Part shown: positions 2,362 through 22,442 of the stretch, one piece after another
How positions within the stretch are numbered: the stretch's first letter is position 1
Layout of the letters: each line of letters begins with the position of its first letter
Virus record (IMG/VR): IMGVR_UViG_3300009173_000088
Coordinates: 1 to 22,442 of that record
Strand: one strand, 5' to 3'
DNA: 22,442 nucleotides
Origin: a virus
Program-made: the position numbers and the translations under genes
Notes under the pieces: model-generated
Databases searched by the model: none
What the model saw: only the letters and a program-made list of their open reading frames with translations
Told to the model about the DNA's origin: nothing

Positions 2362-5300
2362 TGGCTGATAATAGAATTTCTGAAATTATTCAAAATCAAT
2401 TACCTTCCTTTTTTACGGAGGAGGGTTCCAATCTCCCTCTCTTTCTTACTAAGTATTTTGAATTCCTAGAATCTTATCAAATAGAATATACCGATTTAAT
2501 TTTAGACGAATATAATATAGTTCTTGAAGATGATGCCGATGCTTATTATATTTACGGCACAGCTCTGGATGATGGATTAATATACTCACCATCCGATTTA
2601 GAAGTTGAATATGATGTCGGATTACAAACAGGTTATTATTTTCCAATATATGGTAATAGGCCAGATGCGATAGCAGCTTCTGATGATCCAGGAATAGTTT
2701 ATGAATTACACTTAGAAGAATTCGCCGGACGTACATTTTATATGCCCCAAAAAGGTGGAGAAAGCGGCGTCAACTTCGGAGTATATGAAAACGATCCACC
2801 TACAACAACACTTACCCAATATGCCACTTCCGGACGAAAATTTCTATTAGAAAGCACAGAAGACGATAATCCGAGTGTCAGTGAAATTCATGAATTATTG
2901 GTTGAATCAGATAGAGATCCAACTACCGCAACATTTTCATTAGGTGAATTAATTGTGGGTGCCGTTTCTGGAACTGAAGCAATAATTACGGGTGTTCAAA
3001 ATCACGGTGTTTTTCCAGCAGGCAAATATCAATCTGCAGATATTACCAGTAAAAATTATAAAACCGATCCTCATGTATTATTTGCGCGCCCCACAAATAC
3101 TAAAGCTTTTCTTCACGGTGAAGAAATAGTTGGAAAAAGATCTAGAGCAAAAGCAGTAATTGGTCAAACCGATAAAGACATTAAAAGAAATCCTCTCCGA
3201 GGGGCGGCTGATTTAGATTTGGTTAATGATATAGATGAAACCGATAATATGTATTTGGAGAGGTTCCGGGATGATTTTCTAACAAATATTCCTATCGGTG
3301 CCATTGGAGATTTAAGACAAGCGATAAAAACCGCCAGAGAAATTTATAGGTCAAGAGGAACAGAGGATTCATTTTTATGGTTATGGAGAACTGTTTATGG
3401 ATCGGAGCAACTTTCCTTTATATATCCAAAAGAAAGATTATTAAGACCATCCGACGGAACTTGGAAATCATTAAAATCTATTAAAATTTTTACTGGAACA
3501 GCTTTAAATCCAGATGATTTTAATAGTAAAATTATTAAAGGTGAACAATCTCAAGCAACAGCTACTGTTGATAATTCAATTTCATATTTTGAAGGAACAA
3601 CTGGTGTAACAGAATTATTTTTAACCGATTATACCAAAGGATATGATGTTCGTTTTGATGCCTATTCTGATTTTCAATCAGACGAAACAATAGCAACAAT
3701 TGAAACATATATTGACGCAGAATTAATGGGAAGTGATAATTCGGAAGATGTGGTTAAATCAATGACCTTCCCGACAAAATCCTCTCGGGGAACATGTATT
3801 GCGGTTATTGGGGAAATTGATATTATAAGTAATGGAACAGGATATGCCATTAACGATGAACTTATAATTACAGGAGGTGCCGGAAAAGGTGCTGTTGCAC
3901 GCGTTGCGTCAACTGCTAATGGTGCTATTGATGAAGTTATCATTGATGATGGAGGTAATGGTTATTATGGAGGCGAACGTTTAGAAATTAATAATTCTGG
4001 AACCGGAGGAAGAGGACATACCGGCGTAATTTCCAAAGTGCTTCCCACAGGAGTGTTTAGAAGTTCTAATACAAAGGTTAGCGCAGCTATATCAGTTGCT
4101 GAAGGTGGAACTGCTGAATCAGCTATATTATTAAATTCGGCTTCTTTTTCTATCGAAGAAGAAGATGTTAAATATCCAGAAAATATTAATACACACTTTA
4201 GTTCAAGTAATACAATTACGTTTGTTGCGGAAGTAGCAAATCAAGATACCGCAGAAGGTGGAGCAAGTATATTATTAGAAGAAGGAACAGGTTTAATTCT
4301 TATTGATAGTACAGATGGAAGTTCTGATGCTGGAGATAATATTCTTTTCCACACTGAGGCTTTTGAAGATGATATACAACCAGGTTATTTTGTATATGAT
4401 TCTAAAACAGGAACCAGAGGAACAGTTGCAGGGCCCTCAGTAAATAATTCAACTTTTGTATATGCATTAGAAAGTCCACAGGCTCCTAATTTTGTTGAAG
4501 GTTCAGCGTGTGATCTTTATTATAGTGCAAATGGATCTGCAGTTCCTGGTAAATCTAATATGTTTACCATTAACACGATTCAACCCGCCGGCTATTATGA
4601 AATTAAAGATGAAGAGGGATTATTTGCAAATCCATTAGGAGATGGTTCAAGATCAGTTTCAGATTATTATGGAGGAACTGCTTATACTTATACAGGTTTC
4701 GGGTCCATTTCTGAAACTCGAGTAATAACTACAGGACTTGATTATATAAGAGCTCCTAGATATGCAGCAAAAAATGAATCTACTTTAGGTCTAGAACAAT
4801 GGAGATTTGAAGATCCTATAACAGGAAAAAATACTGGTCGATTAACATATTTAAATTTTGATGAAAATGTTTATGGAAAATATAGATTTGGCGAATCTGT
4901 TATAGGGGTAACATCTGGCAAGAAAGCAAAAGTAATATTACCTTCTGTTAATTCTACATCAAATTCTACTTTTAGTACCATGAAGGTAAAAGATGAAGAA
5001 GCAACTTTTTCTCTTGAAGATGTAAATGTTCTTCAAAATAATATTGGAGACTTTGAGGATGGAAGTATTTCAGGACTTTCGGCTTTTTCTTCAAAAAGAA
5101 CAGCCGTAGATACTGGGAGCCACACACTTTCAGTAGAAACATCAAATACTATTTCTGGTTCATATAGTGGTAAGATAGCGATTAATGATCAGTTAGAAAC
5201 TTATATTGGTTTACGTTCAATAGATAGTGAAGAAGGTGAAGCATATGCGAATACTATTATTCCAGGAAATCAATATAATGCTAAAATTTCTTTTAGAGGC

Positions 5301-8300
5301 AGCAAAAGTCTCAAGTTCGTTGAATTAAGATATGGCCATTCAGATACCGATGTTGATTATGAACCAGTAGGATCCACAGTAGGATTAACAGAATCAGTTG
5401 TTTATACTCTTCTGGAAACAACTAATGCAGATCAAGTTTATACTTTCGAAGGAAAATTTGTAGCAAGTTCAGATCGTTATCACGCTGTTTATTTATTTGC
5501 AAATACTTCGACTTCTACAACATATGATTTACATATAGATAATATATCAATCGCTGATATATCATCTCGTGGAAAAATTCAATATGAAGGATTTAATACT
5601 GCCGATGATATAGAATCATTTATGATGTTAGAACCCGCAGATTTTATTCCTGGCGAAATGATTATTTCTTCCCAAGGTGCTAGAACAGCAACTTTAGCAT
5701 CTTCAAATGCTTCTTATCAGGAAACAAATTCTGGTTATGGTAACAATGCTATTTTAAAAGCCGGAGCTTTAAAAACTGGAGCTATCAAATCTCTTTCAAT
5801 TACTACGGCAGGTATTAATTATAATATAGTACCTGCTGTAACTGCTCCTGATGGCGATAATAATGCAACATTTTTAGCTATACGAACAGCTGTAACAAAT
5901 TATCCTGGTAAGTTTCAAGATAAACTCGGAATGATTAGTGATATTATCAGGATTCAAGATTCTTATTACTATCAAGATTTTTCGTACGTTTTAAGATCGG
6001 ACATTCAAATTAATGAATTTAGAGATTTAGTTAGATCTTTTGTTCATCCTGCTGGTTGGAATGTTTTCGGGGAAATTGGAATATTACTTTTGATAAATGT
6101 AGACGTTAAAGTGGAGACGGATACTATTAAAAAGCTTGAACTATTTGTTGATAGAACACCAGCATTTGTACCTACATACGGACCACTCACAACCAGCCAG
6201 AGAGGTACTGATACAATTTATAATAGTACTACCATGGGCCCTTATACTAGTATTTTCGGGCAAATTGATATGTGGACTGGAGAAGTTCATAAAATGCATA
6301 TTGAATTTTTGGATCCGCGAACAATAGGATTTGGAATTACAACAGATGATAAACATTTTGCATTTCATGCCGGACGAGTAGATTGGTTAGTTGGACGTGG
6401 ATGGGATTATGAACCATACAGCCGAGGTTTGGCTGGACAATTTGATCCGTGGAACGATGGATATGATTCAAATCGCACAGGGAGAGTAGAAATACCTCAT
6501 CATTTTTCGCAGCATGATAAAGCGCGTCTTAATTCTACTGAAAAAATTGCTCCTTGGTATCCAAATGTATTTCCAGAATTAGTCATTCCAGGCCACTTCG
6601 AAGGAAATGAATGTACGGGCCACAGTGCCTTTGGCGGAGTTTCATTATGGGGCAAGTCAACTCATTATAATACAGAAAATAGGTGGGGTCCAGTACATAC
6701 GACAAGTGCATGGCGTGCACCTGCAGGAGCACAAAGACCAGCCGACACCTATTGGGGTCTAGGCGGAGATGGGAATCCGAATACAGAACGTAAAGGCGGT
6801 ATAGATTATTGGTTAGAGATAGGTATATTAGGTAAGTATCGTTCTCCGGACGGTACACAAGTAATGCCAACAATTACTACTTATTGGACTTACGGCCAAG
6901 AAGAAATTGAATTACTTGCGGACTTGTGGAAGGATAATCATTATCTCGAAGTTAAAACACACCTCGAAATTTTTGATCGTTGGGGATTACAACGGATACA
7001 ACTTGATCTTCCAGCTTTAACAGGCGTGTCTACTTATGTTAACATGGCAGACTCTGTTTTAGAACCCATTTTTCCAGAAGCTGCGTTTGGCTGGCCCATA
7101 ACAGAATATCCAAATCCTGCATCATGGGAAATAATGGTAACAGTTTCAGGCACAGATTTTTATTTTGATGGTGTAAACATTAATGATAGTGCTTGGTCAA
7201 GAAAACTTATTAAAGGGGTTACATATCGTTTCAATCAAGAAGACAGTTCTAATTTAACTCATCCATTAAGATTTGCTAGTATAATTGATGGTCATCATAA
7301 TGGAAGCTTCGTATCAAGTATGGAATTTCCTGTAACTGCCGTAGGTACTCCTGGTAATGGCGGTGCTTATGTCGACTTTAAAATCCCAGATCATACTTAT
7401 AAAACTTGGTTACCTCCGGATGAACTAGTTGATTGGCAGCCTGATTTTTATCGCGCATTATTTGCATTTTGTCATCTGCATGCTGACTTTGGTGGTCCAA
7501 TAATGACGGAAAATAAATCAGTACTTTCTTCAACTATAGAAGTGACTCCACACACTCCAGTTGCAGCGGTTGATAAACCACAATTAACTGCTATTAATAC
7601 AGGAACTCAAGTATCCTCATCTGGTCAAGCGTATGCAAGAGCAAAAGATAAAAAATTAAATAATCCAAATACATTTATAGTAGCGGGTGCAAAAGTATAT
7701 GGTGGAATGGCAGTGGGATTAAGACCTGATGGAAAAGTAGAAAGAGTATATGAAGTAGGAAACGTATTATTTCCACGTATTAATTATGTTCATTCATTAT
7801 TAGGAATAGTTAATGAAGATGCCGAAGTAGGAGAAGTTGTAACAGTAAGAGATACAGATTCTATAGAAGAACGTGTTTGGGATTTAATACCAGGAGCAGA
7901 ATATTATCCTAATTATAGTCAAAATGTTTGGGCTAAAGGTGGCGATCACGAATGTTGGCTCACTACTGTACCGCCTACAATAACTTCTGCAGATAGTTTA
8001 GATAGAATTAAATTAGGAAAAGCAGTAACTAAAGATCAATTAGATTTATCTTTTTCTCAATGGAAATTATATGAATATCAAGCTTTTGAAGATATTAGTA
8101 AAGGCCATGTAGTTGGTTTAATGGATAATGGAAAAATTCAACTAGTTTTTTGCGAAGCAAATGGTGATGCGAAACCTCAATTAGATGGTGTACATTCAGT
8201 ATTAGGACTAGCAAAAGAAGATATAGCACTGGGAGATTGGGGCGAAGTAGTTACAATAGATAAATCTCTTCAAATGGCTGCTTTTCTAGAAGGATCCTAT

Positions 8301-9002
8301 AATCCACTTCCCGGAACGGGGTTATCAAAAGGTACAAATTATTATGTTGATTATAGAGATGCTTCAATAAAAGAATTTGGAACTTATAGTAATCATCCCG
8401 ATAATATTATCGGAGTCGCTTTACAAAACGATATAATTAAAATAACTACTAAGTTACCAATTCATCAAACATATTCACCACAATGGGATTTGACAACCAC
8501 AGCATATCCATATCCAACATATTGCCCGGTTAGAACTATTCCTAATCCCGATGAATATTTTCTAGCACATGACTCTATAGATGCTGCTGAACAATATGAT
8601 GATCAAATAATTGAAAGCTTGGTAGTCACAAATGTGACACCAGTTAAAAATTTAGAGCAAGGTTCAACAGTTTACTTTGATGATATAAATATAATATTAG
8701 AAGAGTCCGATGGGATGTTATTAGAAGATGGAGATGAATTATTAGCGGAAGATGGCTCAAACGCTGCTACTTCTTCGATTGGTAAGCTAATAATCGAATC
8801 TGAATTTTTACTATATGAAGATCTCATAAATACAGGAATAGGTCAAGAACCGAATAGAAAAATGAATATTTATAGTCGTCATGACGCTAAATATATCGTG
8901 GGCGATTTGACCACAACAACTTTTAACATTCATAATCGCGGTAATAAATATTTTCCAGAAGGAATATTAGATGCCGTTGCTCAACATACCGTTTTAGAGT
9001 AA
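2361..9002 (+). CDS. 7: Giant gp7-like baseplate wedge protein with fibre-like C-terminal extension
   Basis: A 2213-residue protein, twice the length of T4 gp7 (1032). Its first ~1260 residues contain the landmarks of the T4 gp7 C-terminal half: LPLFLTKYFEFLESY (about 25-39), then YRSRGTEDSFLWLWRTVYG (about 327-345, compare T4 STKGIEASYKFLFKVLYNE), and EFRDLVRSFVHPAGWNVFG with a hydrophobic ILLLINV stretch (about 1220-1250, compare T4 DVIRFVHPVGFGF). These are split by large insertions. One holds G-x-GY beta repeats (about 480-565). Another is a jelly-roll domain resembling carbohydrate-binding modules (about 895-1068). After residue 1260 comes a His/Trp-rich region of unknown fold (about 1330-1580), a cupredoxin-like domain (about 1589-1713) with His1634, Cys1704 and His1707, two related beta modules (about 1775-1865 and 1909-2035), and an acidic LLEDGDELL motif (about 2111-2135). 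Its place after gene 6 and before gene 8 fits gp7. The core assignment is fairly sure; the functions of the added domains are inference, probably surface exposure or glycan contact. Confidence 0.78.
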   Translation: MADNRISEIIQNQLPSFFTEEGSNLPLFLTKYFEFLESYQIEYTDLILDEYNIVLEDDADAYYIYGTALDDGLIYSPSDLEVEYDVGLQTGYYFPIYGNRPDAIAASDDPGIVYELHLEEFAGRTFYMPQKGGESGVNFGVYENDPPTTTLTQYATSGRKFLLESTEDDNPSVSEIHELLVESDRDPTTATFSLGELIVGAVSGTEAIITGVQNHGVFPAGKYQSADITSKNYKTDPHVLFARPTNTKAFLHGEEIVGKRSRAKAVIGQTDKDIKRNPLRGAADLDLVNDIDETDNMYLERFRDDFLTNIPIGAIGDLRQAIKTAREIYRSRGTEDSFLWLWRTVYGSEQLSFIYPKERLLRPSDGTWKSLKSIKIFTGTALNPDDFNSKIIKGEQSQATATVDNSISYFEGTTGVTELFLTDYTKGYDVRFDAYSDFQSDETIATIETYIDAELMGSDNSEDVVKSMTFPTKSSRGTCIAVIGEIDIISNGTGYAINDELIITGGAGKGAVARVASTANGAIDEVIIDDGGNGYYGGERLEINNSGTGGRGHTGVISKVLPTGVFRSSNTKVSAAISVAEGGTAESAILLNSASFSIEEEDVKYPENINTHFSSSNTITFVAEVANQDTAEGGASILLEEGTGLILIDSTDGSSDAGDNILFHTEAFEDDIQPGYFVYDSKTGTRGTVAGPSVNNSTFVYALESPQAPNFVEGSACDLYYSANGSAVPGKSNMFTINTIQPAGYYEIKDEEGLFANPLGDGSRSVSDYYGGTAYTYTGFGSISETRVITTGLDYIRAPRYAAKNESTLGLEQWRFEDPITGKNTGRLTYLNFDENVYGKYRFGESVIGVTSGKKAKVILPSVNSTSNSTFSTMKVKDEEATFSLEDVNVLQNNIGDFEDGSISGLSAFSSKRTAVDTGSHTLSVETSNTISGSYSGKIAINDQLETYIGLRSIDSEEGEAYANTIIPGNQYNAKISFRGSKSLKFVELRYGHSDTDVDYEPVGSTVGLTESVVYTLLETTNADQVYTFEGKFVASSDRYHAVYLFANTSTSTTYDLHIDNISIADISSRGKIQYEGFNTADDIESFMMLEPADFIPGEMIISSQGARTATLASSNASYQETNSGYGNNAILKAGALKTGAIKSLSITTAGINYNIVPAVTAPDGDNNATFLAIRTAVTNYPGKFQDKLGMISDIIRIQDSYYYQDFSYVLRSDIQINEFRDLVRSFVHPAGWNVFGEIGILLLINVDVKVETDTIKKLELFVDRTPAFVPTYGPLTTSQRGTDTIYNSTTMGPYTSIFGQIDMWTGEVHKMHIEFLDPRTIGFGITTDDKHFAFHAGRVDWLVGRGWDYEPYSRGLAGQFDPWNDGYDSNRTGRVEIPHHFSQHDKARLNSTEKIAPWYPNVFPELVIPGHFEGNECTGHSAFGGVSLWGKSTHYNTENRWGPVHTTSAWRAPAGAQRPADTYWGLGGDGNPNTERKGGIDYWLEIGILGKYRSPDGTQVMPTITTYWTYGQEEIELLADLWKDNHYLEVKTHLEIFDRWGLQRIQLDLPALTGVSTYVNMADSVLEPIFPEAAFGWPITEYPNPASWEIMVTVSGTDFYFDGVNINDSAWSRKLIKGVTYRFNQEDSSNLTHPLRFASIIDGHHNGSFVSSMEFPVTAVGTPGNGGAYVDFKIPDHTYKTWLPPDELVDWQPDFYRALFAFCHLHADFGGPIMTENKSVLSSTIEVTPHTPVAAVDKPQLTAINTGTQVSSSGQAYARAKDKKLNNPNTFIVAGAKVYGGMAVGLRPDGKVERVYEVGNVLFPRINYVHSLLGIVNEDAEVGEVVTVRDTDSIEERVWDLIPGAEYYPNYSQNVWAKGGDHECWLTTVPPTITSADSLDRIKLGKAVTKDQLDLSFSQWKLYEYQAFEDISKGHVVGLMDNGKIQLVFCEANGDAKPQLDGVHSVLGLAKEDIALGDWGEVVTIDKSLQMAAFLEGSYNPLPGTGLSKGTNYYVDYRDASIKEFGTYSNHPDNIIGVALQNDIIKITTKLPIHQTYSPQWDLTTTAYPYPTYCPVRTIPNPDEYFLAHDSIDAAEQYDDQIIESLVVTNVTPVKNLEQGSTVYFDDINIILEESDGMLLEDGDELLAEDGSNAATSSIGKLIIESEFLLYEDLINTGIGQEPNRKMNIYSRHDAKYIVGDLTTTTFNIHNRGNKYFPEGILDAVAQHTVLE

Positions 9003-9034: not shown

Positions 9035-10762
9035 ATGCCGGCCTTAGTAACAAACAAATTTAGAATGTTCAATGCAAGACAATTCCGGGAGTCTTTTGAC
9101 GAAGATTTCGGAATGACAACATTCGCGAATACAGTCGCAGGCGATACATACTTAGAATCTAATATGTATCTTTTCATCGGTGGTGTCCAAAACTGGGCTA
9201 ATGTAGCGGGAGCCGCGGCAGCAGATTCTGACACAACACCCCCTTCACCTACCGACGATGTATCAAACACCTATTATAGTCACTGGAAGGATATGATTGC
9301 AGCCAAAAAGGTTGTATCTACCGACGTGACACATTGTATTCCTAGATATAATTGGGCTAATAATACGCCTTATTATGCTTATGATAATACAGAACCTGGA
9401 ATGCTAGCACAATCATTTTATGTTATGACAGATGAATTTAACATTTATAAGTGCTTAGCGAACAATAACACATCCGGGAATAGTTTAGCTAAACCTACCG
9501 GACAGACAACAGCACTTGTTACGCCTGGATCTGATGGTTATAAGTGGAAATATATGTATACGATTTCCGCAGCATCAGCCTTAAAGTTTGTAACAACAAA
9601 TTATATTCCAGTACAACAAGTTAGATTTTCAAACGTTGTTATGGCTTCTGCCACTCAAGAAAATACTTTGCAAAGAGATGTTGAGAACGGCGCAGTTGAT
9701 GGAGCCATTAACATCTACAGAAAAACAGCTAATGGCACCGTTGGAGGATTAGAATATTTAATTTTTGAAACTAATACATTAGATAATGGTTTTGGTGGAG
9801 GATATAGTACTACTACAACTTCTTGTAGAATTCACAGCACAGCTTCGGCCGTAGATGACGTTTATGTCGGTTCAGATATTTTCTTTACTTCAGGAGATGC
9901 TGAAGGTTCAGGTGGAACTATTACAGATTATGATGCAACCACTAAAGTTGTAACTTTCAATCCGGCACTTTCTTCCGCTCCTGCTCAAGGCGATAATTTC
10001 CAAATAGCTCCCAGATTACAAATTTTAGGAGATGGTACTGGAGCAAATTGTAGATCTAATGGAACTAATGCATCTGGCTTAACCGATATTGTAACTATCG
10101 CAGCTGGATCCGGATATACAAATGCAGTAGTTAATGTTTTAGCAAATACTTCTTGGAATTTAGATGATGCCAAGGTAGTTGCCGCAATTGAACCTAAAGG
10201 TGGTCATGGATTTGATTCCGTTGAAGAATTAGGCGGATTTAATATAATGGTTAATGTTAGACTAGAAAATGATGAATCTGGCGAATTTACAGTTGCGAAT
10301 GATTTTAGAAAGATTGGATTAATTTCACATCCAAATGCTGCTAATACTACAGATGGATCAGATCTTGGAACTCCGGCAGTAATTTCTTTAGGAGATCAAG
10401 CTCTTAGATGTACACTTCAATCATTTTCTGGAGCAGCTTATATAGCAGATGATGTAGTAACAGGAGCTGAATCAGGAGCCACAGGAAGGGTTGTTGACTG
10501 GGCTTCCGGTACAAGTAAGTTGAGAATAACACAAGTTACAAAAGGAGCTAATTCAACCGTTGGTTGGGATACAACTCCTGGATCGTTTCAAGCTAATGAA
10601 GCTCTAACAATATCTGGTGCCGGAACTACGGCTAACACAAGTGTTATTGAAGGACCTGACTTGAAACAATATACTGGTGATATTCTGTATGTTGAAAATA
10701 GATCACCAATCTCAAGAGCTAGTGACCAAATTGAAGATGTGAAATTAATTATAAACTTCTAA
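9035..10762 (+). CDS. 8: Baseplate wedge protein gp8
   Basis: A 575-residue homologue of T4 gp8 (334 residues), the wedge protein that dimerises and bridges gp7, gp6 and gp10 in T4. Landmarks align well. The N-terminal VTNKFRMFNARQF corresponds to T4 VTSKFRTEKMLNF, VTHCIPRYNW (about 98-107) to the T4 AVIPRRDW region, DGYKWKYMYTI (167-177) to T4 DGYVWEYLFEI, and the C-terminal GDILYVENRSPISRASDQIE to T4 GEMIYMENRPPIIMAMDQTE. About 240 extra residues lie between the YMYTI motif and the C-terminal motif. They include a GSGYTNAVV beta repeat near residue 352 and a VVTGAESGATGRVV element (about 474-487). Such enlargement is seen in marine T4-like phages. The ATG start has GGAG eight bases upstream. 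A 21-base gap separates it from the next gene. Confidence 0.92.
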   Translation: MPALVTNKFRMFNARQFRESFDEDFGMTTFANTVAGDTYLESNMYLFIGGVQNWANVAGAAAADSDTTPPSPTDDVSNTYYSHWKDMIAAKKVVSTDVTHCIPRYNWANNTPYYAYDNTEPGMLAQSFYVMTDEFNIYKCLANNNTSGNSLAKPTGQTTALVTPGSDGYKWKYMYTISAASALKFVTTNYIPVQQVRFSNVVMASATQENTLQRDVENGAVDGAINIYRKTANGTVGGLEYLIFETNTLDNGFGGGYSTTTTSCRIHSTASAVDDVYVGSDIFFTSGDAEGSGGTITDYDATTKVVTFNPALSSAPAQGDNFQIAPRLQILGDGTGANCRSNGTNASGLTDIVTIAAGSGYTNAVVNVLANTSWNLDDAKVVAAIEPKGGHGFDSVEELGGFNIMVNVRLENDESGEFTVANDFRKIGLISHPNAANTTDGSDLGTPAVISLGDQALRCTLQSFSGAAYIADDVVTGAESGATGRVVDWASGTSKLRITQVTKGANSTVGWDTTPGSFQANEALTISGAGTTANTSVIEGPDLKQYTGDILYVENRSPISRASDQIEDVKLIINF

Positions 10763-10783: not shown

Positions 10784-13700
10784 GTGTCTGGAGTAAAAAC
10801 AAATTTTAACATTGCACCATACTATGATGACTATGATAAAAATAAAAACTTTCATAGAATTTTATTCAGGCCTGGTTTTGCAGTTCAAGCAAGAGAGTTA
10901 ACTCAATTACAAACAATCTTACAAGAACAGGTATCTAGGTTTGGTGATAATATCTTCAAAGAAGGTAGTAAAGTTTTTGGTGGGGATGTTACCCTTAATA
11001 ATCAAGTTAATTCTTTAAAATTAGAATCTGCATTTGATAATGCAGATGTTGCCGTAACTAATTTTGCTCAAAAAACTATCACTGGTGGAACATCAGGAGC
11101 TAAAGGTTTAGTTATTCAAGCTGAGCCCGGAACTGTTTCAGATCAACCAACATTACTTTTTTCAAAATTGGGTGGTGGTGATTTTATAGACGGTGAAACA
11201 ATTTCTACTTTAGAAGGCGTGCCATGGCAAGCTAATACGGTTAGTTTAAGTGGAACTGCCGGTATCGCTGCAGCTCAAAATACTGCATCCATTGCAAGTA
11301 TTTCGGAAGGTGCTTTTTATATTAGTGGATTTTTTGTAGTTGTTCAAGATCAAACTATTTCATTAGACAAATATAGTAATAGTCCTACTAAGAGAATTGG
11401 ATTACTCGCTACTGAAGAAATCGTTCAGACAGATGATGATCCATCTATTTTGGATAATGCTCAAGGGACTGCCAACTATGCCGCTCCCGGTGCAGATAGA
11501 TTTGCTATAAATTTAACATTAGCGGCTCTAGATATAGTGACAGAAACAGTCGGAGCTGATGGAACAACGACTGTCACTAGTGACACTATTTCAGAATTTG
11601 CTGGTGAAAAATTTATAGAATTAACTAGAGTTGAATTAGGTGTTAAAACAACAGAAACGAAATATCCACTATATGCGGAAATTGAAAAGACAATGGCACG
11701 CAGAACTTTCGATGAAAGTGGAAGTTATACTGTTCGACCATTTGGAATTCAATTAAAAGATCATATAACCGGTAATAATTCTTTAATTTCTGCCGGATTA
11801 GAAGCAGGTAAGGCATATGTAAAGGGATATGAATATGAAAGTATCGCTACACGATATGTTGATGTTGAAAAAGGAAGAGATACTGCAGCTATTTCGGATT
11901 ATATAGTTGCTGCTGATTATGGAAATTCTTTATATCTCAATAAAGTTTTAGGAACGTTTGATATTTCTAAACACGAACTTGTCGACCTTCATTGTTGTGA
12001 TGCTGCAGTTGTTAACTCAGCAATAGGTGATTCAAATGCGCTGGAAAAATATAATCAAACAAAAATGGGTACAGCGAGAGTAAGATCGTTCGATTGGGAA
12101 CAAGCGGATCTAGTCACATCTAATACTACTCATTATCATTCAGTTTATTCGACACGAATATATGATATACGTTTAAATAAAACTATTAATGCGCAAGTTT
12201 CCGGAGAAGGTGATGATCTTATAACAATCGGAATGCCGGCAGACAAAACTTCTTATGCCAACGGAGCATATAAAGGAGCAACTCTCACAGTTAATACTAC
12301 ACTTGCCGGAGCTTCTACCAGCGATGTTGTTACTATCGCAGAATATATAGCTATTGGTTCCCAACATAAAGCAATAAGTAATACCGCATTATCACAAAAA
12401 GTTCAATCTAATTCAACTTTTTCTATTTCTTTTAAATTTCAAGATTTGGGATCTTTAATTGTCAAGCACGGAGCTAAAAGTCAATTAACTGAAGCTAATA
12501 GTTCATGTGTAGTTAAGACAACACAAGCCAATATAGATAAATTATCAAGATTTAATAATGATCCTGAAGGTACGGCTTTATTGGCTGGCACAAGTAAAAA
12601 TTCTTTAATTTTTCAATTACCATTTTCACCTTTAGCATCTATTCCGGATGGAATAACTTATACTTATAAAACATTTCAATCTGTATCTGTTCCCATTGCT
12701 GGAACAACAACTGTTTCAACCGCAACAGGATCTTTTATAGGAACAGGAAGTTTACCTGCTTCTACAGCAAAAGAATTATATTCCGTGGTTGTTAAAACAA
12801 TTGATAACCCTTCAAATCCTCCTATAGATAATGTTACAGGAGAAGAATTAACTGAGGGCCAAATATTAGAATTTTCTTCAGCAACTGGAAGAACAGCAAC
12901 CATTGATAGTGCATCTCAAACTACATTAAATTTAAATTCAAAAAATGGTGCATATCAAGTTGAAATTCTTTCAACTATTAGAACAGCAAATGCATCTCCA
13001 AGATCAAAAACTTTAACAATTGGAAATACTACAAATTTATCATCTAATACTGATATATCAAAAGGACAAGTTCATTTTATATTACCTAATAAACAAGCCG
13101 GTAAAAAAGATAACTTAATGATCTCAGATGTATTTAACTTAGTATATGTTATTGATTCCGGAGATAAATCAGCAGCCGTTACTTCAACACATTTAGCAGC
13201 CCTTAGAGATATAACATCGACAACAGCAAAGAATATTACAGCAAATTATGAATTAGATAATGGTCAAAGAGATAACTATTATGATCATGCGTCTATTATT
13301 TTAAAACCCGGAGCCGCTGGACCGAAAGGTCAAATGTTAGTAATCGTTGACCATTTTAGTAACCCTGCTCTCGATCCACCCATACAAGATGCCCTAGCAG
13401 GATACTTTTCGGTTCAATCGTATGCCGATGTAGGTGCTAACACTGGTTATCATTATGGTTTAAACGGAGTTAAGAGAGAAGGTCTTAATTTTGATAAAAT
13501 TCCTTCATTTACAAGTCCTACAACGGGCGAAGAAATTCAATTAAGAGATAGTATAGATTTTAGACCGTCGCGTTATTCTGCAAATAATGATAAAGGTTCT
13601 AATACAACAAATGATCTTACTTCTAATAATTCTGCTTTTCCATCATCTCAATTAGGAGCAGCTGGAGGCACTCCAGATCCAGAATATACATTGCAGTTTA

Positions 13701-16915: not shown

Positions 16916-17165
16916 AAATATCCAAACAGAAGATCCGAGATTTGTTAGAGACGTACATTCTAAAGCTCTATTAAATACGGATAAAGATGCCCTAAATAAA
17001 CATAGATTGGAGCGCATGGCTGCAGCTAAACTAAAAGCGCAGCATGATGAAGCGCGCGAAACACAAGCCGCACATCATAAACAACTCCAAGAATTAAAGT
17101 CTACTGTGGATAAAATTGAAAAATTAATACATAAAGTTTTAGAAAAGGATAACAATGGCAGCTAA
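16908..17165 (+). CDS. Small helical coiled-coil protein of unknown function
   Basis: An 85-residue protein that overlaps the end of the DUF4815 gene by eight bases and the start of the next gene by eleven, which suggests translational coupling on both sides. After a motif reading DPRFVRDVHSKALLNTDKDA (residues 8-27), the rest is almost wholly predicted helix rich in Ala, Lys, Glu, Gln and His. A C-terminal heptad-like stretch has L/V/I at LQELKSTVDKIEKLIHKVL. The RDVHSKALLNTD segment resembles short proteins I recall at the same place in T4-like cyanophages, but no function is known to me. Possible roles are a trimerisation or attachment adaptor for the fibre protein encoded next, or a small virion protein. 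The start lacks a strong ribosome binding site, consistent with coupling to the upstream gene. Confidence 0.65.
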   Translation: MNKNIQTEDPRFVRDVHSKALLNTDKDALNKHRLERMAAAKLKAQHDEARETQAAHHKQLQELKSTVDKIEKLIHKVLEKDNNGS

Positions 17166-18690
17166 CGTAGCTTTATCAGATACGTTTGACTTATGGAGAA
17201 CGCGTACTAATCAACTATTAATGTACACTCAAATTCAGGGTGGCAAAGATGTTGTACACGTTTCTAATACTACTAATGCAACATCAACTACGACGGGTGC
17301 GATAACTTCAAACGGTGGTATTGGAATTTTGGAATCGGCTGTTGTTGGCGGTAGTGTTCTCATAAACACAAATTTAACTGTAGATAAAGATGTAGTAATA
17401 ACAGGAAATACTGATATCGGTGATACTTCTGCTGATACATTAACAATTAGTGCAAGAATAGATGCTGATGTAATTCCTTATACCGATGAAGCTAGAAATT
17501 TTGGTAATAGTACTTGGAGATGGGGAACAGTTCATGTAGGAGGCATTGCAGGATCAAATTCTTCCGCTTCATTACATATACCAGTAGGATCTAGTGCAGA
17601 AAGAGCCGGAGGAACAGGTTCAATTAGATGGAATACAACATTAAGTAGATTTGAAGGAAATACTGGTAGTTCTTTTTATCCTTTAGCTCAACCAGAAGAT
17701 CAAGATGGCGATACAAATATTACTACAGATAATGGTAGTGATGAAGATATAATCAGATTTTTTACTGGTAATTCTATAACTGAATCTACCGAGCGAATGA
17801 ATCTGGGAACTTCAGGTAATCTCGCAATCGGTACGGGTTCCACAACCGGCGATGCACAACTTCAAGTTAGCGGCACTGTAAACGTTGGCGGGACTACGAA
17901 TTTTGGAAATAGAGTTAATATAAGAGGAAATACTTATATCTATGATTCAGCCGAGTGGTGTAATGTTGCACCTTCTAGTTGGTTTCATATACATTCTCCA
18001 GATACTACCATCGATTCCGAAAACGTTATTATTACTGGTAATTTAGTTGTTCAAGGTACTAGAACTTATAATGATACAACAGTTACAGTTACTGAAGATA
18101 AAACTTTTGTAATTGGTTTAGCTGGAAACGTTTATAGTGATAGTGATGCCTCTTCTGGTACTATTACTTCGCAAAGAAATAATGCTACTGAAAATCACGG
18201 ATTATCAGTTTCAGATAAAGTTTTTATTGTGGTTGCCGGTACTTCTGGTTTAACAGATGAAGGAATTTATATAGTTGCAACAGTACCAACAGTTACAACA
18301 TTTACATTAACAGGTTATTCTGGCACCGGAACGTTTGATTGGGCTAAATGTCATACCGATGCACAAGCTAGTGGCGGAGGTCTAGTTATACCTGCTACAA
18401 CTAAACATTCATTTACATATGAAAGTTCTCTTAGCGCATGGTTAGTATCAGATGGTGGAAAAGTCAACGGAGCTTTTCAGGTAACTGGTACATCAGATTT
18501 TGATGGAGATTTAGATATTGATGCCGACGTTGTTCATGATGGAACTTTTACCCATGCAGGGACATTCAAAACTACTGCAGATACTACCGCAGCAGCAAAT
18601 TATTTTTTGAAGAGTGCGGATGCTGCTGGAACAAGTTCTTGGGTAGCATTTGGAATTTATGACTCATCCGGAACAAGACTCGGACCTTAA
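17155..18690 (+). CDS. Fibre-like beta-rich virion protein
   Basis: A 511-residue protein of low complexity, rich in Thr, Gly, Ser, Asn and Asp, typical of a phage fibre. The N-terminal helix DTFDLWRTRTNQLLMYTQ (about 9-26) resembles the attachment end of fibre-like proteins in marine T4-like phages. It is followed by strand repeats of the V-x-x-G-(N/T) type (VVITGNTDIGDTSADTL), a GSIRWNTTLSRFEGNTGSSF segment (about 153-172) like those found in tail-fibre shaft domains, and repeats of the same style near IITGNLVVQGTRTYND. The C-terminal part repeats short beta elements (GTSDFDGDLDIDADVVHDG) and ends SSGTRLGP. No peptidase or chaperone motif is visible. AAAAGGA at 17143-17149 precedes the ATG. 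Assignment as a fibre rests on composition and context; whether it is a short or a long fibre cannot be said. Confidence 0.7.
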   Translation: MAANVALSDTFDLWRTRTNQLLMYTQIQGGKDVVHVSNTTNATSTTTGAITSNGGIGILESAVVGGSVLINTNLTVDKDVVITGNTDIGDTSADTLTISARIDADVIPYTDEARNFGNSTWRWGTVHVGGIAGSNSSASLHIPVGSSAERAGGTGSIRWNTTLSRFEGNTGSSFYPLAQPEDQDGDTNITTDNGSDEDIIRFFTGNSITESTERMNLGTSGNLAIGTGSTTGDAQLQVSGTVNVGGTTNFGNRVNIRGNTYIYDSAEWCNVAPSSWFHIHSPDTTIDSENVIITGNLVVQGTRTYNDTTVTVTEDKTFVIGLAGNVYSDSDASSGTITSQRNNATENHGLSVSDKVFIVVAGTSGLTDEGIYIVATVPTVTTFTLTGYSGTGTFDWAKCHTDAQASGGGLVIPATTKHSFTYESSLSAWLVSDGGKVNGAFQVTGTSDFDGDLDIDADVVHDGTFTHAGTFKTTADTTAAANYFLKSADAAGTSSWVAFGIYDSSGTRLGP

Positions 18691-18709: not shown

Positions 18710-20113
18710 ATGGCATCACCATTAAAAGTTTACAATTCTGGATCGGCTGTTCAAGTAATGACCGAAGCAGAAATCGACAGTATGATAGTACCTCTTGTTC
18801 TGCAAGAGTTTGCGTCTAATAATGTTTATAATGTAAGAGGAAATTGTACCGCGTATGCTAATAATGATGGCAACGTCGGTTCCTTTGATAATAGATACAG
18901 AGACGATGACGTAGGTGATCATCCTATTTCCGCATCGAATTTTACCACAACCACTTGGTCTATCCAACAAGAACAATCCAACGCTGCTAGTACAGCTAAC
19001 GTAATCTATCCAACAAAACTTATTGTTTCAGGCAATAAACTTCAGCAAATGAACTTTGCGGATTTAATAGCTACTATTCTAGCTAGAGTTTCTAATAATT
19101 GGAGAACTAATTTATATCCTGTAGGAGGTTATTATTTCGGCCCTGCCGCGCCCGATGCAGATACATGGATTTATACTGGCGACGCTGTAACAGAAACTTA
19201 TAGACAAGCTGGTGCTGATAGTGAAATTGTTTATAGGTTATGGAGAAAAACTGCCCCCAATACAACTTCTGGTGATCGGCCTATTTATAATAGGCCAGGT
19301 AATGATGGTGTTCAGGAAATGACTGATGCTGATATTAAATCATTAGCGGCGGAGTGGAGAAATTATTTGATGAATAGCAGTGTCGGAGAAGATATTGGTT
19401 ATTATAAATTAGTAGTTGGCACTTCAACCCCGACTCCCGGAACATGGGTTCAAACCGGTGCTTATACAGATTATCTAACAGATACTGGCGATGTAATTTA
19501 TTCCCAAGGATATGAAGGAATATATTCTCAAATGTATGAAGGAATATATTCAGGACAATATTTAGGATTATATTCTGGACAATTTACAGGTATATATTCT
19601 GGACAATTTACAGGTATATATTCAGGTCAATTCACTGGACTTTTTTCACGTGGTTATGAAGGTTTTTATTCGCAAGGATATTCCGGTGGATATGCAGGTG
19701 GTTATCAAGGTCCTTATCAAGGTGGATATACAACCGCATATACTGTAACATATGGGTCTGGAAGTGAAGCTCCTAATCCTCAAGCTTCTTCGGAAGGTGG
19801 TTCATTTTCTCATACATATTCTGGAGTTTATTCTGGAATTTTTTCAGGTACATTTTCTGGACAATATTCTAATCAATTTGCTGGATTTTATTCTAATCAA
19901 TATGAGGGAATTTATTCACTAGGTTTTCAAGGAATATTTTCACAGGGATTTGAAGGAATATATTCACAGGGTTTTGAAGGATATTATTCTCAAATGTATG
20001 TAGGAATATATTCAGGACAATATTCTGGATTTTATAGTAATCAATATACGGGGAGAACTGTATTAGCTTCTTTAGATTCTCAGCCGTATACTTTTTGGAA
20101 GAGGATTAACTAA
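18710..20113 (+). CDS. Virion protein with octapeptide aromatic/Gly/Ser repeats, copy A
   Basis: A 467-residue protein in two halves. The N-terminal half (1-263) contains three diverged copies of a module that opens VQVMTEAEID (14-23), LQQMNFADLI (111-120) and VQEMTDADIK (201-210), the latter two ending in a strand followed by a P-x-x-x-TW element. The C-terminal half is repetitive. Residues 264-343 and 370-449 are each ten perfect octads of the form (Y/F)-S-x-x-(Y/F)-x-G-x. A linker containing YGSGSEAPNPQASSEGG separates them and the protein ends YTFWKRIN. The next gene has the same plan. I know no characterised family for it. Context and repetitiveness argue for a fibre, whisker or tip protein on the virion. 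There is no strong ribosome binding site before the ATG, an oddity in this window. The TAATG overlap with the next gene implies coupled expression. The structural role is inference. Confidence 0.7.
   Translation: MASPLKVYNSGSAVQVMTEAEIDSMIVPLVLQEFASNNVYNVRGNCTAYANNDGNVGSFDNRYRDDDVGDHPISASNFTTTTWSIQQEQSNAASTANVIYPTKLIVSGNKLQQMNFADLIATILARVSNNWRTNLYPVGGYYFGPAAPDADTWIYTGDAVTETYRQAGADSEIVYRLWRKTAPNTTSGDRPIYNRPGNDGVQEMTDADIKSLAAEWRNYLMNSSVGEDIGYYKLVVGTSTPTPGTWVQTGAYTDYLTDTGDVIYSQGYEGIYSQMYEGIYSGQYLGLYSGQFTGIYSGQFTGIYSGQFTGLFSRGYEGFYSQGYSGGYAGGYQGPYQGGYTTAYTVTYGSGSEAPNPQASSEGGSFSHTYSGVYSGIFSGTFSGQYSNQFAGFYSNQYEGIYSLGFQGIFSQGFEGIYSQGFEGYYSQMYVGIYSGQYSGFYSNQYTGRTVLASLDSQPYTFWKRIN
19499..19738 (+). 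repeat. Octapeptide-coding repeat block 1 of copy A
   Basis: Ten consecutive 24-base units encode octads such as YSQGYEGI, YSGQFTGI (twice in a row) and FSRGYEGF. Two adjacent units at about 19570-19620 are almost identical in DNA. Other units vary at silent and non-silent sites, so the array is coding-constrained and not a recent slippage product throughout. Confidence 0.95.
19817..20056 (+). repeat. Octapeptide-coding repeat block 2 of copy A
   Basis: Ten further 24-base units encode octads such as YSNQYEGI, FSQGFEGI and YSGQYSGF, in the same length and register as block 1. The first two units are built from YSGV/YSGI/FSGT/FSGQ tetrads. The last two units are almost identical at DNA level to the end of block 2 in the following gene. 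Confidence 0.95.
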
Positions 20114-21852
20114 TGAGTAAACCTTGTCGAATATTGCCATTTGGAGCGAATACCGGGCTTGGTTCTAGTGAAACAGGCAATTTGTTTATAGGAAAATTAA
20201 CAGAAACGGGTTCCGGTGCTTCAGCGAATGTTGGAGAAATATGGGGAATAAATGAGCATCAGGGTGCCAGTGGTCAAGATACATATAAGAACGATATTGA
20301 TGCAGGAGACTACTTAGTAATTAGATATCAAGAATATGGAATGCTCGGCGTTGGGCAGTTCATTAAAGTTACAAATGTTACCGGTACTTTTGGCTCAGCA
20401 GTATTAACATTGGAAGATGGTGCAGCTCCCGACATTTATAGTTATTTAAATGCGTCCGGCGGAAATTATACTGGTCAAACTGATGTTGAAGTTATTTTTG
20501 AAAAAGTAGAAAGTTGGGGCGTACAGGAAATGACTGTAGACCAAATCGATGAGTCATGTGTTGTTCCTATTTTTGAAAGATGGGGAAGTTATACAAAAGG
20601 AACGGCAGGCAATGATTTTTGGAAGGGTCATGTTCGACCGATTTCTGGCACCAGTGCTACAGCCGGTTTTACTAGTGCTGGATATATAGGTGAAAGATAT
20701 AGAAGTCCGGACGTTGTAGGAGATCACCCAGTTGCGAATAATGTATCTATAACTAATGTATTATTAGAATATAATTCCGGCAGTGATCCATATAATGGAA
20801 CCAGTTTTAATGAAACTCATGTTGATGATACAGATAGTGTTCCTCCATTTATTAAGGTCGACGGCAGTAATGTCAAAGTTATGACTGAATCAGAAATGGA
20901 AGATAGTTCAGATACTGTAATCGAAAGATGTGTTCAATATTATATTAGTGCAGCTAATACAGTAGGTTCTTATCATATTGGAACATCACCTGGAGATGGA
21001 GATACTAGTTCTTGGCATAGTGAAACATTTTTTGAAGATAATGTTATATCCTCATCCGGTGCTGCAAATACTACTTATAATCTCTATAGAAAAGAATCTG
21101 GTATAACAAGAGGATGGAGCGGTACTAGATTATTATCAAATGCTAATACAACTTCAAGAGCTGCAAATTCCGTTTATTATTTTGGTGGAACTAATACTGA
21201 TTATATTGCCGTTGGAAATTATCCACGTGCTGCAACAGATGAAGTAATTTATAAACCTATATATCAAGATACTCCTAATCTAAAAGAAACGGCGCATACC
21301 GCTGGTATTTCCGGAACTTTAACAAATACTGCTAATGATGCAGGAATGCATTTATATTGGCATAAACGTTTATTAAGAAATGTTCTTTCAAAAACAATAG
21401 GTACTTATGCATTTGTCGCCGGAGGTTCCGCGCCTGGAACCGGTACATGGCAAGCCGTAGGAACATGCTCGGATAGATTAACAACCATTGGAGATGTAAT
21501 TTATTCTCAAGGATATGAAGGTATCTATTCTGCATCATATGAAGGTATCTATTCTGCTGGGTTTCAAGGGCCATATGAAGGAATTTATTCTTCCGGTTTT
21601 CAAGGTGGATATACTTTTACATATGGGTCTGGAGGAGAATCTCCTAATCCTCAAGCTTCTTCAGAGGGTCCAACATATTCTGGAGTTTATTCTTCTGGCT
21701 TTACAGGAATATATTCAGGAATATATTCTCAGGGCTTTACATCAACATATTCAGGCCAATATTCTGGATTTTATAGTAATCAATATACAGGCACAACAGT
21801 TTTTACTGTCCTGGAACAAGATGATTATTCTTTCTGGAAAAGAGTAACATAA
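20113..21852 (+). CDS. Virion protein with aromatic/Gly/Ser tetrad repeats, copy B
   Basis: A 579-residue protein paralogous to the one encoded just upstream. The first ~135 residues are distinct (opening MSKPCRILPFGANTGLGSSE, with a beta-rich YLVIRYQEYG segment). Then come modules like those of copy A: VQEMTVDQID at 137, with a VGDHP motif shared with copy A, VKVMTESEME at 254, and a less clear third copy around 410-455 ending GTGTWQAVGT. The C-terminal part has repeat blocks at residues 464-503 and 522-561, each ten aromatic-x-x-x tetrads. They are separated by YGSGGESPNPQASSEG, and the protein ends YSFWKRVT. Both blocks are half the length of those in copy A. The start overlaps the preceding stop by one base, and a strong ribosome binding site, GGAAGAGGA, lies at 20097-20105. 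It is probably a fibre or decoration protein assembled with or beside copy A. Confidence 0.7.
   Translation: MSKPCRILPFGANTGLGSSETGNLFIGKLTETGSGASANVGEIWGINEHQGASGQDTYKNDIDAGDYLVIRYQEYGMLGVGQFIKVTNVTGTFGSAVLTLEDGAAPDIYSYLNASGGNYTGQTDVEVIFEKVESWGVQEMTVDQIDESCVVPIFERWGSYTKGTAGNDFWKGHVRPISGTSATAGFTSAGYIGERYRSPDVVGDHPVANNVSITNVLLEYNSGSDPYNGTSFNETHVDDTDSVPPFIKVDGSNVKVMTESEMEDSSDTVIERCVQYYISAANTVGSYHIGTSPGDGDTSSWHSETFFEDNVISSSGAANTTYNLYRKESGITRGWSGTRLLSNANTTSRAANSVYYFGGTNTDYIAVGNYPRAATDEVIYKPIYQDTPNLKETAHTAGISGTLTNTANDAGMHLYWHKRLLRNVLSKTIGTYAFVAGGSAPGTGTWQAVGTCSDRLTTIGDVIYSQGYEGIYSASYEGIYSAGFQGPYEGIYSSGFQGGYTFTYGSGGESPNPQASSEGPTYSGVYSSGFTGIYSGIYSQGFTSTYSGQYSGFYSNQYTGTTVFTVLEQDDYSFWKRVT
21502..21621 (+). 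repeat. Aromatic-tetrad repeat block 1 of copy B
   Basis: Ten tetrads (YSQG, YEGI, YSAS, YEGI, YSAG, FQGP, YEGI, YSSG, FQGG, YTFT) keep an aromatic residue at every fourth position. A half-octad insertion (YEGI) breaks the octad register but not the four-residue one, which suggests that four residues are the basic unit. Confidence 0.93.
21676..21795 (+). repeat. Aromatic-tetrad repeat block 2 of copy B
   Basis: Ten tetrads (YSGV, YSSG, FTGI, YSGI, YSQG, FTST, YSGQ, YSGF, YSNQ, YTGT). The last four are encoded by DNA nearly identical to the end of block 2 in copy A (about 20020-20049), including one run of more than 25 identical bases. Confidence 0.93.
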
Positions 21853-21885: not shown

Positions 21886-21915
21886 ATGGCTGAACAAAAA
21901 GTGGCTGAACAAGAA
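21886..21915 (+). repeat. 15-base tandem duplication at the start of the last gene
   Basis: ATGGCTGAACAAAAA is followed directly by GTGGCTGAACAAGAA (13 of 15 bases identical), encoding MAEQK then VAEQE. It creates a possible second start codon (GTG) at 21901. Only the first copy has a well-spaced ribosome binding site, so 21886 is preferred. Confidence 0.8.
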
Positions 21916-22442
21916 GAGTGGACACATGATACAATGATTGAGGGCCTGTGGCGCTCAGATCAAAAAAAAGAAATTTCTATTCTTTATGAAAGACAAGATA
22001 AATCTAGATACTCTGGACAGGCTTTAGAAGATTCACGAGAATGGAAAGATTTTTTTCACAAATTTACATCTGAACAAATTGATGAATTTTCTGAAACTAA
22101 TAAACAGCAACGCGAAATTCAAAATAAAGACAGAGGCCCTAGATCAAATATTAAACAAAGGGATGAAAAACAACGATTTGAAAGAAAAAGAGCTGCAGAT
22201 GATTTAGAAACTTTATTCCGAGCTAAATTAGAAGCTTTTGAAATTCCAGAAGTTAGAGATAGTGAAAATAGAGAATTAAGATCCCGAATTAGAAAATCTA
22301 AATCATTAACAGAAATTTCCGCACTAGTTGCGTCTTTTATAACTTTATCTATAATTAGAGTAACTTTATCTGCGGAAGGTCTTTTGGATGAAAGATCTAC
22401 AGAGGAACCAGCAGCTAATACATCAACAATTGAAGCAGTGGC
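21886..22442 (+). CDS. Uncharacterised charged helical protein, partial (runs off the window)
   Basis: An open frame of 185 codons from ATG at 21886 to the window edge with no stop. The protein is highly charged and predicted mostly helical. It opens MAEQKVAEQEEWTHDTMIEG, has a Lys/Arg/Glu/Gln-rich middle (RDEKQRFERKRAADDLETLF), then FEIPEVRDSENRELRSRIRK (starting near residue 117) and a short hydrophobic stretch, SALVASFITLSIIRVTL, that is amphipathic and not a convincing membrane segment. The FEIPEVRDSENREL segment resembles conserved hypothetical proteins of T4-like cyanophages as I recall them; no function is known to me. AAAGGA upstream supports this start. An earlier ATG at 21873 closes after six codons. 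It does not resemble gp13 or gp14, the neck proteins that often follow in related genomes. Confidence 0.7.
   Translation, partial: MAEQKVAEQEEWTHDTMIEGLWRSDQKKEISILYERQDKSRYSGQALEDSREWKDFFHKFTSEQIDEFSETNKQQREIQNKDRGPRSNIKQRDEKQRFERKRAADDLETLFRAKLEAFEIPEVRDSENRELRSRIRKSKSLTEISALVASFITLSIIRVTLSAEGLLDERSTEEPAANTSTIEAV

Follow-up and report, generated by a model that had tools for sequence, protein, structure and literature searches.

The closest described systems to the proteins considered here come from bacteriophage T4. According to PMC6957217, the gp37 needle consists of a knob (residues 811–881 and 1010–1026), two stems (residues 882–931 and 960–1009) and a tip (residues 932–959), and G921 packs against F970 of another subunit. 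By our arithmetic these two residues each lie ten residues from the tip, one in each stem. PMC9603124 describes a needle 20 nm long with a 15-Å stem, in which each chain turns at the tip and has both of its ends at the knob. A second T4 protein, the cell-puncturing gp5C, forms a rigid rod from an octapeptide-type repeat, a valine/glycine sequence VXGXXXXX arranged as a continuous triple-stranded helix (PMC3004832). Here we analyze two adjacent genes of a 22.4-kb IMG/VR virus record, IMGVR_UViG_3300009173_000088 (positions 1 to 22,442, hereafter the window), which encode repeat proteins 1 and 2. Both are probably out-and-back fibres in which two antiparallel arms of aromatic repeats are connected by an insert at the tip and a short C-terminal tail lies back at the base, with a trimeric assembly suggested by analogy. 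The two proteins share the following layout:

18710..20113, + strand: repeat protein 1, 467 residues
18710..19498, + strand: protein 1 N-terminal part, residues 1–263, with modules common to a wider family in alignments
19499..19750, + strand: protein 1 arm A, 21 aromatic tetrads, residues 264–347
19751..19804, + strand: protein 1 central insert (tip or turn), YGSGSEAPNPQASSEGGS, residues 348–365, 18 residues
19805..20056, + strand: protein 1 arm B, 21 aromatic tetrads, residues 366–449
20057..20113, + strand: protein 1 C-terminal tail, 18 residues (...YTFWKRIN), and stop
20113..21852, + strand: repeat protein 2
20113..21501, + strand: protein 2 N-terminal part, residues 1–463
21502..21621, + strand: protein 2 arm A, 10 aromatic tetrads, residues 464–503
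21622..21675, + strand: protein 2 central insert (tip or turn), YGSGGESPNPQASSEGPT, residues 504–521
21676..21795, + strand: protein 2 arm B, 10 aromatic tetrads, residues 522–561
21796..21852, + strand: protein 2 C-terminal tail, 18 residues, and stop

The true period of the repeat is four residues, not eight, such that each arm is a series of aromatic tetrads of the [Y/F]-x-G-x type. From residue 264 of protein 1, 22 consecutive aromatics occur at four-residue spacing; in 5000 shuffles of residues 264–449 the run averaged 3.5 and never exceeded 9. Tallied over 11 proteins, tetrad position 1 is mostly Tyr or Phe, position 2 is mostly small or Thr/Ser/Ala/Val/Glu, position 3 is Gly in 42–87% of tetrads and position 4 is variable. 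The N-terminal part of protein 1 repeats a module of the type (Q/K)EM(T/S)xxE(I)...GxYxL...P..GTWxxxG, the C-terminal tail carries the family motif (L/F)(W/Y)x(R/K), and the central inserts are alike in protein 1, protein 2 and the relatives of both.

A first-pass annotation of this DNA had read protein 1 as two blocks of exactly ten octads, (Y/F)Sxx(Y/F)xGx, at residues 264–343 and 370–449 of the 467-residue open reading frame (ORF) at 18710–20113, and the frame and both blocks lie where it placed them. The strict octad describes all ten units of the second block and eight of the ten units of the first, in which YAGGYQGP and YQGGYTTA depart from it, and the aromatic at every fourth position is perfect over a longer run than had been claimed. 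Because the natural unit is the tetrad, ten and ten is really 21 and 21; the equality of copy number stands and the count itself does not. The like layout of protein 2, with 10 and 10 tetrads, had gone unmentioned. The observation is therefore genuine, partly confirmed in its particulars and of greater significance than was then seen, and the interpretation attached to it is partly supported.

Among relatives the absolute number of tetrads is not conserved, but the equality of the arms is. Relatives were collected by a scan of viral contigs, which gave 14 loci encoding relatives of protein 1, and further ones by protein-alignment scans and a degenerate DNA pattern for three octads. Arm parsing took only sequences with a YGS[GMN]-type insert, of which 24 were distinct, both window proteins included. 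In 23 of these 24 the two arms have exactly the same length, and nine such lengths occur (8, 9, 10, 14, 15, 16, 17, 21 and 24 tetrads). In L035, the sole unequal sequence, arm B is interrupted by an in-frame stop that 9 tetrads precede and 15 follow, 24 in all; this stop, at ~8183 and near the contig end of a protein-1 relative, is a sequencing error or marks a broken gene. L139, which has the insert YGSD and stands outside the parsed set, has arms of 17 and 17 tetrads, and L154 is cut by the end of its record. The comparison of copy number that had been proposed as a check thus came out with arms of anything between 8 and 24 tetrads among close relatives, so that ten is not a conserved value, and with an equality that is kept.

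How do the arms change length? In relatives they change by whole tetrads, not just by whole octads. In the alignment of protein 1, the L014/L015/L017 lineage has three additional tetrads ~1 tetrad before the insert and another three ~3 tetrads after it, although placement inside a repeat is approximate. Both insertions sit on the insert side of their arm and are therefore roughly mirrored rather than at the same position in each arm. Both arms change together, and the changes keep the four-residue register; the earlier suggestions of an exact register and of selection on length are supported. That the arms change length together points to antiparallel pairing of the two blocks and not to two separate rods; the solenoid that had been proposed is not supported, and the exclusion of collagen and of a coiled coil is. 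At the codon level, nonsynonymous differences are fewer than synonymous differences in nine of ten arm comparisons, the exception being arm B of L017 (22 versus 21), and for this reason the arms look constrained at the protein level.

A wider family of proteins resembles these two in its N-terminal modules and C-terminal tail but differs in the repeat sequences between. In a first set, defined by a simple hidden-state segmentation, 40 complete ORFs with at least two tetrad segments fell into 19 N-terminal clusters, which include L072 (without the family C-terminus) and L059 (with a different N-terminus). In 17 of the 19 clusters the first and last segments differ by no more than 3 tetrads, against 3.6 clusters on average and 11 at most in 100,000 permutations; the misses are L148 and L151, and examples of matched pairs are 128/126, 119/121, 128/129, 54/54 and 41/42. 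The longest arms, 171/171 tetrads, are those of L083, which is cut on its N-terminal side. A scan made with the short relative L060 contributed at least 80 further loci. Requiring the tail motif no more than 40 residues from the last segment gave a wider set of 97 complete ORFs in 51 clusters, and single linkage (blastp E < 1e-3) joins the N-termini of all 97, those of both window proteins among them, into one group. In this wider set a difference of at most 2 tetrads between first and last segment is seen in 23 of 43 clusters; permutation gave 5.2 on average and 16 at most.

Several of these layouts are mirror-symmetric. Block lengths in tetrads read as palindromes in L192 [5,5,5,5,6,10,6,5,5,5,5], in L196 (likewise, with one extra block per side), in L183 [six 5s, 16, six 5s], in L153 [9,5,6,5,9], in L185 [11,7,11] and in L217 [78,78]. 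These examples come from a set without FWKR-ended proteins, in which proteins 1 and 2 are left out; the counts over 51 clusters include them. Mirror autocorrelation exceeds a block-shuffle null at P ≤ 0.01 in 14 of the 51 clusters and at P ≤ 0.05 in 21, the latter divided by tail into 14 of 26 LW or FW clusters and 7 of 25 LY-type clusters. The test is powerless on short perfect arms, as in L089, whose arms of 18 and 17 tetrads give P 1.0. In L155, L188, L192, L196 and L183 a longer unit of five tetrads plus ~2 residues is stacked in mirrored or nearly mirrored fashion about the centre. L148 reaches a mirror score of z 8.9 even though its 12-residue repeats differ between the arms (QVPEQYVGAYTG-like versus YERQQDITYTGL-like). 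Its 3150-residue ORF (start 4939) has a large central stretch, residues 1683–1854, between arms of ~115 tetrads; a 177-residue piece covering most of this stretch had no Pfam match, and the stretch is a candidate receptor-binding tip domain.

The turn between the arms was considered separately in members with a single hairpin. A central motif, [FY][FYP]xG(x3-4)[GPTA], is present in 21 of the 31 examined and absent in 10. The arms around it are equal within 0–1 residue in 17 of the 21 motif-bearing members and differ by 9–25 residues in the other 4; in L138 and L173 the pattern seems to have picked a wrong site. The rough centring of the motif is by construction, since the candidate nearest the midpoint was chosen. 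Two large members have longer middle stretches instead, of ~90 residues (L080) and ~170 residues (L148). For residues facing each other across the arms, aromatic–aromatic and aromatic–glycine offsets were not separable, and because the two offsets differ by two residues under a four-residue period, no cross-arm register is claimed.

Structure prediction, which had been named as a check, was carried out with single-chain AlphaFold2; it was uninformative for protein 1 and, for a relative, yielded a pair of strands resembling a hairpin. This second model, of the short relative L060, was built on an alignment of 29 family members and has a mean predicted local distance difference test (pLDDT) score of 84.6 and a predicted template modelling (pTM) score of 0.78. 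It contains base modules of helices and strands, followed by two long consecutive strands at residues 239–270 and 274–315 with a three-residue turn between them, and a C-terminal tail at pLDDT 92–96. The two long strands with a tight turn are thus a feature modelled only, in a relative that is ~30% identical to protein 1, and it is this relative that the structural evidence concerns.

The fold that would follow from these observations can be described from the base outward. The N-terminal modules and the short C-terminal tail would sit together at the base, arm A would run outward, the central insert would make the tip or turn, and arm B would return beside arm A in antiparallel orientation. 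In an extended strand, tetrad positions 1 and 3 would face one side; because they share that side, the aromatic/glycine face would pack in a core, leaving the Ser/Thr/polar face exposed to solvent. Three chains would probably form a thin six-stranded rod, by analogy with the T4 gp37 needle, which may present its tip to the host. At 0.33 nm per residue such a rod would measure ~28 nm in protein 1 and ~13 nm in protein 2. That the two blocks have the same copy number most likely reflects their being two legs of a single fold-back fibre.

The parallel with gp37 (D10–D11) extends to several features. Like gp37 as described in PMC6957217, these proteins would have a base, an outgoing stem, a tip and a returning stem; the stems of gp37 are of equal length (50/50 residues), as are the arms in 23 of the 24 distinct protein-1/2 sequences. 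In gp37 the chain ends with 17 residues that lead back to the base, to which the 18-residue tail would correspond here, and the aromatic-on-glycine contact of gp37 (G921/F970) may be compared with the aromatic/glycine tetrads. The differences are equally clear. There is no detectable sequence or profile homology to gp37 and no HxH iron motif, the arms of protein 1 having one His and those of protein 2 none; the aromatic tetrad is strict here and arms reach 171 tetrads in relatives; and the tip is conserved in proteins 1 and 2, unlike the gp37 tips, which PMC9603124 describes as divergent. Because homology and the HxH motif were looked for and not found, membership in the gp37 family is not claimed. 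By analogy, the window proteins would work like the gp37 needle without being members of its family. The likeness to gp5C is limited to the possession of an octapeptide-type phage repeat that makes a rigid rod in gp5C, as the VXGXXXXX repeat does not occur here and the sections of PMC3004832 on gp5C mention neither paired arms nor a return of the chain.

Several results weigh against the fold-back reading. The AlphaFold2 model of protein 1, from 10 aligned sequences, is worthless (mean pLDDT 29, pTM 0.18), with arms at pLDDT ~21–30. In the L060 model the arms reach only pLDDT 55–74, so this model is support and not proof, and the strand pairing and the place of the C-terminus were read from strand order, the model having been judged by secondary structure and confidence and not by coordinates. 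Searched with Foldseek against PDB and BFVD, the L060 model returned nothing at E ≤ 0.001. In the wider family, mirror autocorrelation fails to reach P ≤ 0.05 in 30 of 51 clusters, made up of 12 of the 26 that have LW/FW tails and 18 of the 25 of LY type. On a crude measure, no mirror signal was found in the long LY-tailed members L200, L201, L203, L205, L210, L226 and L232 or in the LWIR-ended ORFs of L187 (673 residues) and L196 (717 residues), and L076 and L061 also lack one, but the other LY-tailed members L063, L091, L100, L075 and L217 do give a signal. Divergence of the layouts in the members without signal, or too coarse a segmentation, would account for this. The case for folding back is best for the window proteins and those closely related to them.

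Against this background, four other explanations can be weighed. The blocks might be independent beta-solenoid or beta-helix rods set end to end, like the triple beta-helix of T4 gp5C. A strict short period, the Gly/Ser/aromatic composition and the phage context all suit such rods, and an octapeptide repeat does form a trimeric beta-helix in gp5C according to PMC3004832; however, the consensus given there, VXGXXXXX, differs from the tetrad repeat, and independent rods leave unexplained the equality of the arms over nine lengths, the mirrored layouts and the strand-turn-strand model of L060, so that we regard them as decidedly improbable. A FUS-type low-complexity region has no fixed register or length. 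That the arms are a flexible FUS-like sticker region without fixed structure, to which the Tyr/Ser/Gly-rich composition and the low pLDDT of the protein 1 arms would lend themselves, is scarcely credible to us: the phase is held over segments of up to 171 tetrads, whole-tetrad differences occur in both arms together, and nonsynonymous differences are the fewer in nine of ten arm comparisons. Nor is the low pLDDT specific to the arms, because the N-terminal part of protein 1 is likewise unmodelled. The kept register and the codon comparisons also bear out the first-pass annotation where it set the region apart from FUS-like disorder.

Equal arms could also be a by-product of duplication or recombination between the arms, without structural pairing. 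The arms are alike in composition, and in protein 2 of L011 their similarity in forward order, at offset 0, scores 108 against a null maximum of 96, which counts for duplication and against a fold-back origin of the equality; in the same protein the reversed-order alignment also exceeds its null. The other six of the seven proteins compared have forward scores within the null, among them protein 1 (97 versus a null mean of 82, standard deviation 12) and L083 (886 versus a null maximum of 905), and in L083 the reversed order is best, at 940 and above the null. Several layouts are mirrored and are not same-order repeats, and the high mirror score of L148 is obtained from 12-residue repeats that differ in sequence between the arms. 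Because a forward excess is confined to L011, the reversed order is best in L083 and the arms of L148 differ, duplication does not explain the pattern in general, and we give it little credence. It is less easily said how many chains take part. The hairpin may be right and the assembly a monomer or dimer, that is, a two- or four-stranded ribbon and not a trimeric gp37-like needle: the sequence evidence speaks to arm pairing and not to chain number, and the strand-turn-strand of L060 was obtained with a single chain. Such a ribbon seems unlikely, as PHROGs annotated as tail fibre and predicted with confidence were in general trimers in a recent survey of predictions (31 of 38; PMC13232217), and a two-stranded ribbon that runs on its own for hundreds of residues would probably lack stability. 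We therefore retain the out-and-back fibre, trimeric by analogy with gp37, as the probable reading for proteins 1 and 2.

The repeat genes lie in a phage baseplate context. From the left end of the window, the genes around them are as follows:

44-466: baseplate wedge subunit by PHROG (phrog_261)
475-2361: baseplate wedge subunit by PHROG (phrog_219)
2361-9002: giant protein between wedge genes, with partial matches to structural PHROGs
9035-10762: baseplate wedge subunit by PHROG (phrog_438)
3' of the wedge genes: 2043-residue protein, phrog_358/DUF4815
Between the phrog_358/DUF4815 protein and the gene at 17155-18690: a small protein
17155..18690, + strand: fibre-like protein with the end ...YDSSGTRLGP, no Pfam or PHROG family
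21886..22440, + strand: small charged protein, running off the window, no PHROG match

We take the products of 44-466, 475-2361 and 9035-10762 to be the counterparts of T4 gp25, gp6 and gp8. Proteins with an end like ...YDSSGTRLGP also precede the repeat genes in the relatives L017, L080 and L187, and in L017 a head-tail adaptor gene (phrog_211) lies further downstream of the repeat genes. L017 also carries a 2OG-Fe(II) oxygenase gene (11496-12080; phrog_61, E 1e-29) in the interval from the fibre cluster to this adaptor gene. In T4, gp11, gp12 and wac are encoded between the baseplate wedge genes and the neck genes. The repeat genes occupy a like slot, downstream of wedge genes and, in L017, upstream of the head-tail adaptor, but they show no sequence match to gp11, gp12 or wac, and the structural match of L060 to gp11, which would speak for the collar/knob fold that gp10, gp11 and gp12 have in common, is weak: gp11 ranks first in Foldseek at E 0.45, with a VIA-align Z of 2.2 over 46 residues (VIA-align of the L060 model gave Z 3.2 and 2.2). 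The earlier designation as a virion protein rests on gene context, namely the three wedge subunits upstream and the adaptor of L017 downstream; on the fold-back reading, proteins 1 and 2 would serve as fibres of the tail or baseplate.

Tandem pairs of repeat genes with differing arm lengths are common (L187, L080, L198, L217 and the window), as if each virion carried two fibres of different reach. The small charged protein (150–193 residues) 3' of the repeat gene or genes was compared in the window and in seven relatives, and all eight sequences can be aligned around a common C-terminal core; no PHROG match was found in the six members scanned. Its genes in the relatives are:

L017 9338-9916
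L080 530-979, − strand
L174 4772-5239
L187 5083-5535
L165 4421-4873
L198 6578-7048
L136 3568-4107, − strand

In L217, the eighth relative inspected, a second repeat gene occupies this slot and runs off the stretch read. In T4, the gp38 gene adjoins the gp37 gene. Folding of gp37 requires gp38 (PMC3004832), and by this analogy a reasonable guess is that the small charged protein is a candidate fibre-folding helper.

No Pfam, PHROG or NCBIfam model matched protein 1 or protein 2. A profile of 29 family members gave three weak matches among all PDB chains, none of them a phage fibre, and protein 1 alone gave one weak, unrelated match. Glycine-zipper (PF13441) stayed below its gathering score of 28.9 bits, the best value being 27.1 bits, in L177, with lower values in L080 and L216, and did not match the window proteins. 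One member of the group A5 matched phrog_584 (E 0.009). Among the named phages searched, the sole match apart from a weak one of 5% coverage to Enterococcus phage Riverwalk was phage C48C1 (OQ984149.1, Kyanoviridae), whose hypothetical protein WJE88074.1 shares N-terminal homology and aromatic tetrads, adjoins genes annotated as tail fibre and chaperone, and includes a piece that matched phrog_15773 (unknown function; E 2e-6). Unlike the window proteins, WJE88074.1 is giant, with many segments and inserts and no simple arm equality visible, and its ORF runs off the stretch read. Absence from the libraries therefore holds for the window proteins and not strictly for each relative. A literature search recognised no description of such a protein, so that "not described" is provisional.

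A scan of genome contigs with four aligned relatives found none. The octad pattern gave at least 117 stretches in genome contigs, and most of the 53 ORFs listed from these are simple DNA repeats. Two genome-contig loci are family-like: L331 (PBYV01000077.1), in a metagenome-assembled genome (MAG) of Acidimicrobiaceae, and L352 (CALPIE020000128.1), in a MAG of Bifidobacterium breve. L331 measures 26,910 bases, as does the viral contig IMGVR_UViG_2778261338_000005, and L352 is a 6,491-base contig with the family tail; both are probably binned phage contigs and for that reason are not taken as evidence of host. L059 (3086-4843) combines its different N-terminus, which has sub-threshold similarity to Disaggr_repeat/CBM96, with arms of 15 and 16 tetrads and with stretches rich in Cys and His (DYCDRCCHAHR and YICSRCGTG) at the turn and where arm B ends; it may be an independent fold-back fibre that has a metal site.

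Beyond the window, we lean somewhat towards the broader view that these proteins represent a widespread, unnamed class of phage fibre in which length is written twice. A mirror-symmetric chain of tetrads would fold back on itself through an aromatic/glycine core, reach would change by matched blocks in both arms, and tips could be swapped independently; arms would range from ~5 to 171 tetrads each, roughly 7 to more than 200 nm if fully extended. A low-complexity repeat would then become a readable structural code, with arm A, tip and arm B legible from the sequence alone, so that fibre length and the likely host-contacting tip could be read in phages with few or no cultured relatives. Equal arms together with mirror symmetry of the repeat track may also serve as a homology-free sequence test for fold-back fibres. 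The evolutionary question that this raises is how arms that in the long members lie hundreds of residues apart gain and lose units together.

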